Shown here piece by piece: positions 10,374 to 18,298 of a stretch of 18,298 nt of DNA; position 1 is the first letter of the stretch; every line of letters begins with the position of its first letter. The notes beneath the pieces are model-generated. The model worked only from the letters and a program-made list of their open reading frames with translations, was not told where the DNA came from and made no database searches. The stretch lies in assembly GCA_964017145.1 (NCBI GenBank), contig CAXHKQ010000326.1:1-18298 (forward strand), in the 5' to 3' direction. This DNA is from Agrocybe praecox (Eukaryota > Basidiomycota > Agaricomycetes > Agaricales > Agrocybaceae). A program made the position numbers and the translations under genes.

Positions 10374-11363
10374 TTAATTGTGGTCCCCCTGTCCATCATG
10401 ATAGAACCCACATCCAGCGCCGCTGTTCTCCCGATCGCCCATCTTCAAACCGCCAAAATGCGGATGCCCGTCCTCGTAATCCGGCGATCCGTTCTCCAGC
10501 GCTCCCCCAAAAGTAGTTCGCTGCGGTCCGCCCACCACGCCCACCACCGTCGGCACGTACGTCGTCTCCGGACTGCATTTGTTGCAGCTGCGCCGCAGTG
10601 CCGGCCGCTGACGCGATCCATGGCAGCGCACCGCAAAGCGCAACTCCTCCGCCATCTCGGCGCACAGCGACTGCTTCTCCGACTGCGTCACCTTCTTCGA
10701 GTTCCAGCAGAACTCCAGAATGGCGACCGCAATGGCGAGCGCCAGGCCGCACAGCAGCACCACGAACACGCCGCCAATGTTCTCAATTCCCAGCGCATTC
10801 GCCTTCGATTCCTTGTTCTTCTCGTCCCGATTGCACACGTCGCCAGTGTTCTTCCACCACTTGTCGTACAGTATCTGAATGACGCCCTTCTCCTGCAGCT
10901 CCAGAATGGCCAGTGAGATCTTGTCGCGCCACAGCGATCCCTTCGGTGTCGCAATGCCGTAGCCCTTGGAGTCGAGCAGCCCGCCGATTTGCGTCAGATT
11001 GCAGTTGCGCTGCACCGCATAGTCGATCATGGTGGACTCCATCAGGAAGGCATAGTTGCCCTCGAGCACTTTGCCGGTGCCATCGTCGTAGCTGCGCACG
11101 AACACCGACGGGCTCTTGCTCTCCATGAAGCGCCACATTTTCTGGTAGATTCCGATCTTGGAGTCGCGGAAGAAGGTCATGGTGCTGCCACCCTCGAGGG
11201 TGCCGTACGAGATGTCCGTTTGGTCGGCCAGGTCGGCGGCGTTCTCGATGGGCGTAATCATGCGTTCGACGGTGAGGAATGCGGCCAAATTGGCGGTGTA
11301 CGAGGAGATAATGATGAGCGTGAAGAACCACCAGATGCCGCCGACGATTCGCGTCGAGGTTGC
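10374..11363 (-). CDS. Receptor exon 9: M3, ligand-binding S2, M4 and cytoplasmic tail
   Basis: This terminal exon has 329 codons plus TAA at 10376-10374. The acceptor is TGCAG|GCA. It encodes [10 protein letters not shown]3 with [16 protein letters not shown]2 with GGST (Ser738, Thr739), FLMEST (Glu787) and [14 protein letters not shown], then M4 (about residues 875-897 in 8a numbering) and a tail of about 110 residues. The tail is Gly-rich near its end and I see no clear PDZ-binding motif at its C terminus. The exon is markedly more GC-rich than exons 1-5. Confidence 0.94.
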
Positions 11364-14300
11364 CTGCACGCGCGCAGATAACACATACATTTAGATAATT
11401 CTTGACTTGCTTGACATGCTCTTGAAAACTCTACAGAATACTGAAGCTTTTACTACACTATTTCGCTACGCTTGCAACAAGCCAAACGTCGTCGTCAAAG
11501 TCATTCAAAGTGTTGCACACCTTAAGATTCAAGTCAGATCCCTGCTGCATCAGTGTGCCAATGGCAAACCAGAAGCTGTTGTTCAGCGTGAAATTGTTCT
11601 CAATGCAAATCAGCTCGGTATTGTCAACATCATCTTGAATATAATCGATGCCTTTGTGATAGTAATCGTTGTCGATTGCCGAACAATGTAAATGCGGATT
11701 ATCTTCGTGTTTCGCGTGGGTCTGAGTACATCCGTTCGGATCGACACCGTCTTCATGGTCGAGTAGCTTGAGAAATGCTTTGCGATAGAACTTGTTGTAG
11801 TTCACGTCCTTGTCGTGGACTTGTACGCATTGATGTGAGAGGCTGGACGGACAATCCGAATGCATCGTTGCCGGATGCCATTCGAACGGCGAAAATCGTG
11901 CGACTATCCAGAGCGTTAGAGCGACCAGAACATAAGCGGCCCCAATGTAGCACCAAATCTCCTTCGCTAGCGGATTCATGAACGAGAAGATACGCTTCTG
12001 AACGGCCTCTGGTTTCTGTAAATTGTGCGAATAATCGAAATGAAATTATAATGTGAATGGCATGCGAATCATGAATCATTTCAGGTGCGCGAATAACTTT
12101 GACGACGACGACAAGTGAACACACGGCAAACCCAAAATCCTACAAAATGCATCGAACAAACCTTCGGGTTCAGGCCTGATCCCTGTCGCAAGAACGTGCC
12201 GGTTATGAACCAGAAACTGTTCGACACCGAGAACTGGTTCTCGACAACGTCGGACTCTTGCTGGCACGGATGCGGATTATTCCACTCGTACGGCGAGAAG
12301 CGCGCCATCACGAAGAGCGTGAAACTGACCAGCAAATATGCAGCCAAAACGTACAGCCAAATTTCGACCGCGAGTGGATTCATGAATGAGAAAAGCCTCG
12401 TTGGCTGACTTGTGGGCATCTGATCGCAGATGATGCGGATAGATTGTCGTCATTGTTGTGGATTGATTACACCAAGCAATTGTTTTCGACTCGTATGCTT
12501 ACCTTGAACAGAATACCGATGCCTAGGTTCATGAATGGTTTTGTGAAATCGATGACAGATTCTCGGGCATAATTGATTGTCATCGAAGCGACTGCCAAAT
12601 CAGCACGCTGTGAGTATTTTCAGAGAAAACAATTAGCTCTCCGGCAGCATTCCGACACTCGAAATACTCACCCTCTCTATCAGCTCCTGCACGATTCCGT
12701 TCCACGTCTTCGTCTCCGGATCGTACACACCGTACATGTTATCCGGAACCAGACGAATCGAATACCGGAAGCCAATCTGCCCGGCAATTCCTTTCAGCAA
12801 ATCAATGCAGAATCCCTCGAATCGTGCATTGCCCTCCAGATTCGGATCGGTGCGCACCATCACGTAGGGCTTTTCCTCGCGCGTCATCACGATCAGCGTG
12901 ATGTTCGTTGCATTCGATTCGTAGAATGCAGTTTTATCGGAGATATTCACTCCCGACGCGGGCATCCAGTCGCCGACTTTCTGCACATGCTCCCGCTTCA
13001 ACTTTAGCAAATCAAGCTTGAAGTTGCTGCGCTGACCGTTCCGGAACTCAATCGGTCCGGTCAGGCCGTTCCACACGGTGCTGGTGATGCGTTTGTGCAC
13101 CAGCCGGCCGGAGCTCCACGGGCGATCCTCGTTGTCGCAGCTCACGTTCGCCACGGACAGAAATGCGGACGATCGATCGAGCTCCATCAGACCGGCTGCC
13201 AGCGTGTACACGGAGTCGAACATCAGAGCCGGTTTGGTGCGTATCATCATGCTGGAGTTAAGGCCACCTTGGGTGGATGAATTTGCGTGGGGTTTGGGTT
13301 GAAACCCGTCTAGTTGTTTCAAAATATCTTTGACACGATGGGATTCGCTGTCGACTAGACGGAAGGCAGTTATGTTGACATTGTTGTAGTTGAAGTCTTC
13401 GAGATCGAACGACTCGAGATCCTGGATAGATGACTGAGAATTAGATTGGGGCTACATATTATGGCGTTTTATACTCACGAATGTGGTGAACATGTAGTGA
13501 TATCGATAGTCGTTCATTTGAAGTTGTAAAATCTGTAAACACATTATTTTCTGACTGACTTGTAAATTAGTGAGAAAATGTTGTCTTACCGATCGGAAAA
13601 ATATCTTTATGTTAGTGGCATCTGTATCGACGATTATTTTGAATATTTCTTTCTGTCGAATATCACGTAATACTTGTCGGTATGTGTCAGGTGCGGTTTG
13701 GCGAATATATATCTCATGATTCGAGAATGCAGATCGAACATTGGAGGCCTTCAAAAAGTCTTGCTGTTTGAACAGTCCTGAAATGCAAGCCATTTTGTTA
13801 AAATTTTGACAAACCATCCACAACTGTTTCGAGTATTCTCACCGTAATCGTTCTCGTACAGAACAGCAAATCTCGTCCAATTCAAATAGCTGATAAGATC
13901 GAAATAGGCTTGATTTATGTACCGTTGTGATGGATGTAAATTTATCGAGAACGATCTCGGAACCAATAGGTCACTGTAGGCATCATGTCGTTGCGGATTG
14001 TAGCCGCCTCCGGGCTGGTGCATCGGAAACGGTCGGTTCGTTGGTCGATGAATATAACTATTTTTGATTGCATTCTCAATGGTCGTATGAAAATCGATGC
14101 GTTGCTGAATGCACGGTATTTGGAGAGCGTCACATATTGATTCAATATGTGTGCCGAGAAAGGTATCAGTCGGTGCAAAAATTGCGTACACACCACCGAG
14201 GCGCGAGGTTTTCGCGGCACCGAAACTCTGCGCCCCGTCGTATTCGTTGGCAAGTTGGCGACAAACTGAAATTAATGGAAACTATCAAGAACCTGGATTT

Positions 14301-14639
14301 TATGAATGCAATGTCGAATGTTTACTCTTCTTTGTCGTTCTGAATGAGTCTTCCTTTGGCACATATTGGATATCGTAAATTAATGTTGTTGATGGCAGTA
14401 TAGTTTTGTCCTTGTTTATGCGGTAAATCGCATACTTGAATGCGATTTCGGCCGAGCCGTTACGTTGGTCCTCTGTGAATATTGTGGCTGAAACGAATGT
14501 CTGATAACAAATCGAATACAAATCAAACGTTATATTGCAACTTACCTATACGGACGATAGATGGGAGGCCACATTCTCCTATGTCCAACAACATAAGCAG
14601 TACCACTATCACCAAACGCAATTGCAAAGTTCGAAACAT
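10374..14639 (-). CDS. Kainate-type ionotropic glutamate receptor, nine coding exons with two alternative pore exons
   Basis: This gene encodes a ligand-gated cation channel subunit of the plasma membrane, probably neuronal. I joined exons at GT-AG sites: 14546-14639, 14326-14487, 13843-14265, 13590-13777, 13479-13532, 12672-13421, 12503-12607, then 12162-12419 (8a) or 11521-12015 (8b), then 10374-11363. Phases agree throughout, giving 1007 residues with 8a or 1086 with 8b. Domains in order are a signal peptide (about 1-23), amino-terminal domain (24 to about 470), ligand-binding S1 (from about 489), M1, pore loop, M3 with [10 protein letters not shown]2 and M4. Glutamate-contact residues are present: Tyr493, Thr567 and Arg572 in S1; Ser738, Thr739 and Glu787 in S2 (8a numbering). 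The family call is secure. The precise orthologue among insect kainate-like subunits is not, so no symbol is given. Constitutive introns are 57-83 bp. The gene diverges from the GMC gene. Confidence 0.95.
11521..12015 (-). CDS. Alternative pore exon 8b: M1 and pore loop, Gln at the Q/R site, long loop
   Basis: This 165-codon exon is a second copy of the M1-pore exon, phase 0 at both ends (TTTACAG|AAA and AAG|GTGTGC). It encodes [21 protein letters not shown]1, RFSPFEW, a loop about 79 residues longer than in 8a, then [12 protein letters not shown] and [13 protein letters not shown]. The Q/R-site residue is Gln749, codon CAG at 11547-11545, as in unedited vertebrate kainate subunits. The loop is His/Cys/Asp-rich. 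There are no stops or frame breaks, so this is unlikely to be a dead duplicate. It is not a separate gene: it lacks its own ligand-binding and M3-M4 parts. Use in place of 8a is inferred from exon phase and homology. Confidence 0.92.
12162..12419 (-). CDS. Alternative pore exon 8a: M1 and pore loop, Arg at the Q/R site
   Basis: This 86-codon exon is phase 0 at both ends (CAG|ATG and AAG|GTTTGT). It encodes the pre-M1 stretch, M1 (about residues 608-631), a short M1-pore loop with NNPHPC and SDVVENQF, and the pore loop [19 protein letters not shown]. The residue aligned with the vertebrate Q/R site is Arg670, codon CGA at 12188-12186. The short loop resembles vertebrate kainate subunits in length. 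It joins in frame to ATSTRIVGG of exon 9. Confidence 0.93.
12503..12607 (-). CDS. Receptor exon 7: S1 glutamate-contact segment
   Basis: This 35-codon exon, phase 0, runs [20 protein letters not shown] and ends in [10 protein letters not shown]. Arg572 is the near-invariant residue that holds the glutamate alpha-carboxylate. The Pro of the vertebrate AMPA/kainate P-L-T/A motif is Ser here (ASMT). The exon ends at LFK|GTAAGC, the common donor for both alternative pore exons. Confidence 0.92.
12672..13421 (-). CDS. Receptor exon 6: end of amino-terminal domain and ligand-binding S1
   Basis: This 250-codon exon is phase 0 at both ends. It starts at CCAG|GAT with [20 protein letters not shown]. 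It then covers the end of the amino-terminal domain ([25 protein letters not shown]) and the linker, and enters S1 with EEKPYVMVR, where Tyr493 corresponds to the Tyr that packs over bound glutamate. [18 protein letters not shown] follows. The donor is AGG|GTGAGT. Confidence 0.93.
13479..13532 (-). CDS. Receptor exon 5: 18-codon exon of the amino-terminal domain
   Basis: This 54-base exon, phase 0 at both ends, encodes [18 protein letters not shown], a conserved segment of the amino-terminal domain. The acceptor is TTTACAG|ATT and the donor TTC|GTGAGT. It is too short to be found by length alone; homology to the family and matching splice sites support it. Confidence 0.87.
13590..13777 (-). 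CDS. Receptor exon 4: amino-terminal domain
   Basis: The acceptor CAG|GA completes Gly227, giving [13 protein letters not shown] across the junction. The exon then encodes [15 protein letters not shown] and [19 protein letters not shown], typical of lobe 2 of the leucine/isoleucine/valine-binding-protein-like domain. It ends in phase 0 with the donor TCG|GTAAGA. Confidence 0.88.
13843..14265 (-). CDS. Receptor exon 3: amino-terminal domain with two insertions
   Basis: The acceptor TTTCAG|TT completes Ile86. Conserved blocks are [55 protein letters not shown]. Two stretches look longer than in related receptors I know: about residues 93-110 (Gly/Ala-rich) and about 144-186 (Pro/His/Asn-rich). 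Both are read through in frame with no stop. The donor is G|GTGAGA. Confidence 0.88.
14326..14487 (-). CDS. Receptor exon 2: amino-terminal domain, first lobe
   Basis: The acceptor is TTTCAG|CC, which joins exon 1 to give Ala32 and then [13 protein letters not shown], a hallmark of kainate-type amino-terminal domains. Another AG lies 11 bases upstream but breaks the frame. The exon carries [12 protein letters not shown] and [12 protein letters not shown]. The donor is A|GTAAAC. Confidence 0.88.
14546..14639 (-). CDS. Receptor exon 1: start codon and signal peptide
   Basis: ATG lies at 14639-14637. The exon encodes 31 codons plus one base. A Leu/Val/Ile-rich stretch at residues 5-18 followed by DIGEC looks like a cleavable signal peptide, leading into LPSIVRI, the usual start of the mature amino-terminal domain in insect kainate-like subunits. 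The donor is G|GTAAGT. This is the only Met that gives a signal peptide directly upstream of the conserved domain, so the start is well supported. Confidence 0.85.

Positions 14640-16358: not shown

Positions 16359-18298
<1,940 letters not shown>

Follow-up and report, generated by a model that had tools for sequence, protein, structure and literature searches.

The window, by which we mean the whole stretch of 18,298 nucleotides that was analysed, carries on its minus strand (10374-14639) a gene for a kainate-type receptor. Coding exons occupy nine positions in it, the eighth of which is present twice. The coding exons are as follows.

14546-14639, minus strand: exon 1, signal peptide region, with a putative start codon (ATG) at 14639; placed by eye from its donor and open frame
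14326-14487, minus strand: exon 2, from the spliced open frame
13843-14265, minus strand: exon 3, amino-terminal domain, from the spliced open frame
13590-13777, minus strand: exon 4, from the spliced open frame
13479-13532, minus strand: exon 5, from the spliced open frame
12672-13421, minus strand: exon 6, end of the amino-terminal domain and ligand-binding S1, from the spliced open frame
12503-12607, minus strand: exon 7, with the common donor at 12503 (GTAAGC), read from the sequence and the spliced open frame
12162-12419, minus strand: exon 8a, M1 and pore loop, R/G version, 258 nt, 86 aa, phase 0 at both ends
11521-12015, minus strand: exon 8b, M1 and pore loop, Q/D version, 495 nt, 165 aa, phase 0 at both ends
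10374-11363, minus strand: exon 9, with the common acceptor at 11363, M3 to the stop codon, Lig_chan match with E 2.1e-27

Exons 8a and 8b have AG/GT borders and lengths that are multiples of three. The original prediction held that both are phase 0 at each end and fit the same exon 7 donor and exon 9 acceptor, and this is what the spliced frames give: exons 1-7 joined to exon 9 through 8a form an open frame of 1007 aa, and through 8b one of 1086 aa. Its further claim that each of the two exons encodes M1 plus the pore loop is borne out by Pfam Lig_chan (PF00060), which matches above its cut-off in each exon taken alone (8a, E 3e-18; 8b, E 1.5e-13). Exon 8a also matches the same stretch of vertebrate GluK2 with E 3.5e-30, and the two exons are 71% identical across a stretch of 114 nt. 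Tandem exon duplication is a simple origin for two exons that are homologous by this identity and by their common Lig_chan match; with the GluK2 match and the presence of the same pair in other arthropods, the pair lies far beyond chance. When the whole protein (8a isoform) is used as query, most of the best 120 of 1069 matches bear the name glutamate receptor kainate 1, 2 or 3, the others being unnamed or hypothetical proteins or CG11155. Judged by these matches, the gene is a kainate-type ionotropic glutamate receptor, GRIK2-like and of the CG11155 group. By eye, exon 3 (14265-13843) has a Pro/Gly/Asn-rich surplus of some 30 residues over P0107 and other kainate receptors of insects. The receptor gene is adjoined by a GMC-type oxidoreductase gene (16563-18298, plus strand; Pfam GMC_oxred_N, E 2.7e-10), whose coding sequence by eye switches reading frame several times, which suggests small assembly indel errors or a broken copy. 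A Lig_chan search of the assembly to which the window belongs (59 Mb, 347 contigs; best candidates scored) returned this receptor gene only, far fewer than expected for an insect, so the assembly probably represents a fraction of a genome.

The two pore exons differ at the Q/R site and at the +4 residue together, and 8b has in addition a loop of its own between M1 and the pore. The relevant positions are listed here.

12186-12188, minus strand: Q/R-site codon of 8a, CGA, Arg, read from the sequence
12174-12176, minus strand: Q/R+4 codon of 8a, Gly where vertebrate AMPA and kainate subunits have an acidic residue, read from the sequence
11545-11547, minus strand: Q/R-site codon of 8b, CAG, Gln, read from the sequence
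11533-11535, minus strand: Q/R+4 codon of 8b, Asp, read from the sequence
11608-11877, minus strand: additional loop of 8b between M1 and pore, 90 aa, with 18% Asp/Glu and 11% His and a net charge of -9, from a composition count

Counting codons from the sequence gives the same Arg and Gln at the same positions as had been claimed at the outset. A passage of PMC6307864 states that the Q/R residue and the acidic residue at +4 have a part in the Ca2+ permeability and the polyamine block of AMPA and kainate receptors, and excerpts of a study on a placozoan receptor (PMC12226733) describe loss of polyamine block once the +4 acid is removed and more rectification with Arg at the Q/R site. By analogy with these vertebrate and placozoan receptors, a transcript with 8a (Arg plus Gly) would give a low-calcium, polyamine-resistant pore, and one with 8b (Gln plus Asp) a calcium-permeable, polyamine-blocked pore. 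The outcome for the R/G pore is uncertain, because in the placozoan receptor Arg raises rectification and loss of the +4 acid removes the block. The same excerpts report poor expression of the placozoan Arg mutant and poor conductance of all-Arg AMPA and kainate homomers (PMC12226733), so R-only subunits may, by analogy, need partner subunits.

The original prediction had proposed a search for the exon pair in other insects, and the pair is indeed present there and also in crustaceans. The 252 homologues considered are the union of the best 120 of 7744, the best 120 of 1069 and the best 120 of 1414 matches, obtained with the isoforms of the window itself or a leafhopper Q isoform as queries; the figures are thus counts of related sequences and not of independent events. 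Classed by pore motif, their cassettes are R only in 85, Q only in 55, R followed by Q in 107, and two or three Q in five, these last being apparently fused neighbouring genes or distant relatives. Among the same 252 listed homologues, the +4 residue is Gly in 192 of 192 R cassettes, and in the 173 Q cassettes it is Asp in 166, Glu in five and Asn in two. The pair with R upstream occurs in flies, beetles, bees, ants, sawflies, bugs, stick insects, locusts, termites, mayflies and damselflies, and among crustaceans in Penaeus, Scylla, Procambarus, Cherax, Armadillidium, Daphnia and Artemia. No protein is from a mosquito or moth by name among the matches listed, and the lower flies Culicoides and Bradysia have the R form only among the matches listed, neither of which is evidence of absence.

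The two exons differ in how strongly they are conserved. Mean pairwise identity, with the loop excluded, is 0.938 for 8a (37 rows) and 0.725 for 8b (31 rows), and the 8a of the window is 99% identical to that of a damselfly over 75 columns; this near-invariance suggests that the Arg form matters greatly. A tree built from 89 cassettes over 75 columns, the trait columns among them, sets R cassettes apart from Q cassettes with support 100/99 and groups the 8b of the window with seven fly 8b exons with support 99/98; the bootstrap of this tree was not settled (0.988 versus the 0.99 wanted). Its place among fly 8b exons makes it likely that the receptor gene is of fly origin. Insects and a barnacle also have a second kainate gene, in which an R cassette is again followed by a Q cassette; the R cassette of this gene is very different. 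Quick trees require two R/Q changes with M1 only (pore left out) and one with only the two trait positions masked, so that, as far as these trees go, the R/Q switch either predates the duplication of the kainate genes or arose twice.

That the two exons serve as alternatives is supported by gene models made by others, in which R-only and Q-only isoforms of what appears to be one gene are found. In 17 species, picked because both R-only and Q-only forms were listed, the two models are identical over at least 353 residues before and at least 242 residues after the cassette in 17/17, and such matching flanks are what alternative inclusion predicts. One R-only protein of 1000 aa (P0138) is encoded on a contig of 3189 bases, which is too short for introns, and is therefore likely a transcript of the R-only form. 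The 107 listed models that hold R and then Q in one protein can be read in another way, namely that 8b is an optional cassette used after 8a and that the product is an M1-P-M1-P-M3 subunit, either a tandem-pore receptor or non-functional, with no either/or switch. The reading frame permits this, as double inclusion and double skipping are both in frame and the frame accordingly does not force mutual exclusion, and five of the 14 model pairs compared (Bacillus rossius, Anthonomus, Episyrphus, Halyomorpha and Neocloeon) differ solely by the presence of 8b. However, the 55 listed Q-only models, and the occurrence of Q-only beside R-only forms in all of the picked species, would not be expected of a cassette that merely follows 8a; from receptor topology a second M1 should invert M3 and place the S2 lobe inside the cell, and gene predictors tend to chain two in-frame exons in series. 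The serial models were moreover favoured by the ranking of the first search, and many look like gene predictions. We regard this optional-cassette reading as distinctly unlikely and infer that most serial models are artefacts or unproductive products. One serial model of the second gene (P0119) has a UniRef record but no genomic contig and may be transcript-derived; since part of its ligand-binding region is present twice, it may equally have arisen in assembly. Gene models of the picked species thus support the claim of alternative R and Q exons, while the models that hold both, as they stand, count against strict mutual exclusion.

The same comparisons brought up two further isoform differences. 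In several insects (P0099/P0131, P0150/P0212, P0153/P0215, P0145/P0222 and P0224/P0226) the paired models show a second difference, which starts 353-355 residues ahead of the pore cassette and suggests that the amino-terminal domain has an alternative exon as well. Two-cassette models of bees and sawflies differ from R-only models at the C-terminus as well (P0055/P0164, P0024/P0181 and P0028/P0184).

We propose that one of the two tandem M1-plus-pore exons would be inserted per transcript, bringing either Arg with Gly or Gln with Asp into the pore. As a whole, this spliced two-residue pore switch is in our judgement probably the best explanation of the locus, the choice between the exons being deduced from predicted intron pairing and the electrophysiology from known receptors. 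A related reading accepts that R and Q forms are made by splicing and places the main role of the switch elsewhere than in Ca2+ selectivity, with heteromer assembly, trafficking or conductance being tuned and the 8b loop being regulatory. It draws on the poor behaviour of all-Arg homomers and of the placozoan Arg mutant noted above, on the near invariance of 8a, as might befit an obligate partner, and on the 8b loop. Among the hand-picked cassettes, 23 have a loop of at least 20 residues, with lengths of 26-172 residues and a net negative charge in 21/23; by eye, the 8b loops of that set have little sequence in common. The residues that change between the forms are nevertheless none other than those at Q/R and +4, the two linked with Ca2+ permeability and polyamine block, and a main role apart from Ca2+ selectivity is in our opinion a minor possibility. 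From receptor topology, the loop should lie on the cytoplasmic side. Penaeus, Scylla, Procambarus, Cherax and a single sawfly model (Diprion) have a Q cassette of 86 aa, no longer than the R cassette, which makes the long 8b loop likely a later addition. Leafhopper 8b loops (P0003 of Homalodisca and P0099 of Macrosteles) consist of an extreme His/Asp repeat, and P0003 has a precomputed match to PF02535, a zinc transporter family; judging by composition, the His/Asp loop of leafhoppers may bind metal.

How the choice between 8a and 8b is made can be approached from the splice sites and the introns around them. Position +4 of the intron is A in 7/7 of the other donors of the gene and T in those of 8a (GTTTGT) and 8b (GTGTGC), as expected for weak, regulated sites. 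An intron of 146 nt between 8a and 8b, and exon lengths that are multiples of three, make steric or frame-based exclusion unlikely. U12-type (minor) introns were rejected by eye, since all borders are GT/AG with the look of U2-type introns. The candidate pairing elements in the introns are these.

12090-12110, minus strand: middle element, in the intron between 8a and 8b; predicted 21-bp pairing with 11487-11507 (two G-U), from a fold of the region
11487-11507, minus strand: partner element, in the intron between 8b and 9, from a fold of the region
12083-12090, minus strand: stretch whose predicted pairing would cover the 8b donor (about 11515-11522), from a cofold
12444-12456, minus strand: weak competitor element, 13 nt, in the intron between 7 and 8a, complementary to the middle element at 12102-12114, from ungapped complementarity

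The predicted 21-bp helix has an ungapped score of 49, compared with a shuffle mean of 26.1, and 0/1000 dinucleotide shuffles score as high; in the rest of the window 1/1240 pairs of the same spacing (overlapping, in 25-base steps) reaches that level, with a score of 68. This ungapped test was chosen after a gapped energy test and is the second of two tried: by gapped duplex energy the pair between introns 8a-8b and 8b-9 is not singled out (12/200 shuffles as low), and introns 7-8a and 8a-8b give 15/200 shuffles as low. Part of the helix is a GAC/GTC triplet run. No Rfam match reaches the gathering score. The cofold of the two helix segments has an energy of -47.2 kcal/mol, with the helix extending over the 8b donor. 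Mean unpaired probability, computed for the whole region, is 0.116 at the 8b donor, 0.173 at the exon 9 acceptor and 0.294 at the 8a donor, so that predicted masking is not specific to 8b, the other two sites being mostly paired as well. For the competitor pairing before 8a, 13/1000 shuffles score as high with the middle element held fixed and 103/300 when both introns are shuffled, and a competitor pairing that would loop out 8a is only a hint.

On the basis of these predictions, formation of the 21-bp helix would loop out 8b and perhaps cover its donor, and 8a would then be joined to exon 9 to give the R form; were the helix undone, or were the middle element to pair with the intron before 8a in its place, splicing would take up 8b and the Q form would result. 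The weak and, by prediction, mostly paired 8b donor could also belong to an exon in decay, in which case the R form would be the working receptor of this genome and 8b rarely or never used. Such a state would agree with the greater divergence of 8b and with its end SDLNLK, in which LNLK replaces the LNPK of most homologues. Against it, the 165 codons of 8b are all open, M1, the pore motif, the Gln and the Asp are kept, and the exon groups with fly 8b exons as described, and we consider decay of 8b very improbable. As for the pore switch that we prefer, the joint proposal of an old arthropod splice switch of two residues, a fast-evolving and mostly acidic cytoplasmic loop by the pore mouth that many species have in the calcium-permeable Q form only, and a Gln exon hidden by intron pairing is one that we hold with about even confidence.

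Among essential RNA edits of the nervous system, that of the Q/R site is the best known. ADAR editing of vertebrate GluA2, GluK1 and GluK2 likewise yields Gln or Arg at the same pore position in the product of one gene, with the same expected effect on Ca2+ permeability and polyamine block. In the present gene, however, the genome itself encodes both residues, each in an exon of its own, and the +4 residue changes too. A search of the intron between 8b and 9 for a complement of the 8b Gln region found none that stands out (763/1000 shuffles as high), unlike what is known of the edited receptors. Editing of 8b from A to I, with CAG read as CGG, is possible in principle, and splicing may act in place of editing in these animals.

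Other known systems share parts of this arrangement. The flip/flop exons of AMPA receptors are tandem, exclusive exons of an ionotropic glutamate receptor gene, but they lie at the end of ligand-binding S2 and affect gating, according to a passage of PMC8257547, whereas in the present gene the exchanged segment is the pore. Insect nAChR alpha6, which combines alternative exons with editing, is an insect neurotransmitter receptor with tandem alternative exons; it belongs to another receptor superfamily and has no Q/R site. For silkworm, an excerpt of PMC1919356 reports an nAChR alpha6 form in which the two alternative exons 3 occur together. Competing intron pairings control exclusive exons by loop-out in insects, and docking and selector structures of Dscam, 14-3-3zeta, Mhc, MRP and srp govern the use of tandem exons in this way, as outlined in parts of PMC6071210. 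In competing-structure control as described in the same source (PMC6071210), one element can pair with either of two others, a layout that the middle element here would share, although the pairing here is predicted from one genome and its competing second pairing is weak. The likely Drosophila orthologue is CG11155, and the D. busckii CG11155 model (P0086) has R and Q cassettes. In the passages of PMC4521455 and PMC4382183 that deal with it, CG11155 is treated as one gene, with no mention of pore exons; knock-down of CG11155 affects rhythmicity under constant light, according to PMC4521455. For D. melanogaster, a passage of PMC6071210 gives a total of 102 exclusive clusters of two exons and leaves them unnamed, so that CG11155 may be included, and the two pore exons may well be annotated in Drosophila databases. 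The main text of a study on Bactrocera oviposition concerned with Grik2a/b/c (PMC12875582) does not contain the words isoform, splice or exon, and in the literature searched, where the term 'Q/R' with its slash is unsearchable, no description of R/Q pore exons of arthropods was found. Isoform models with one or the other or both of the exons are already present in public databases, without a discussion of what they switch having been found in that literature.

If the proposed switch is real, splicing would govern calcium entry through this kainate receptor in insects and crustaceans. The use of R and Q forms would then be readable from the junctions of existing RNA-seq data for any tissue, and the arthropod and vertebrate receptors would offer a natural comparison between splicing and editing as routes to one and the same residue.
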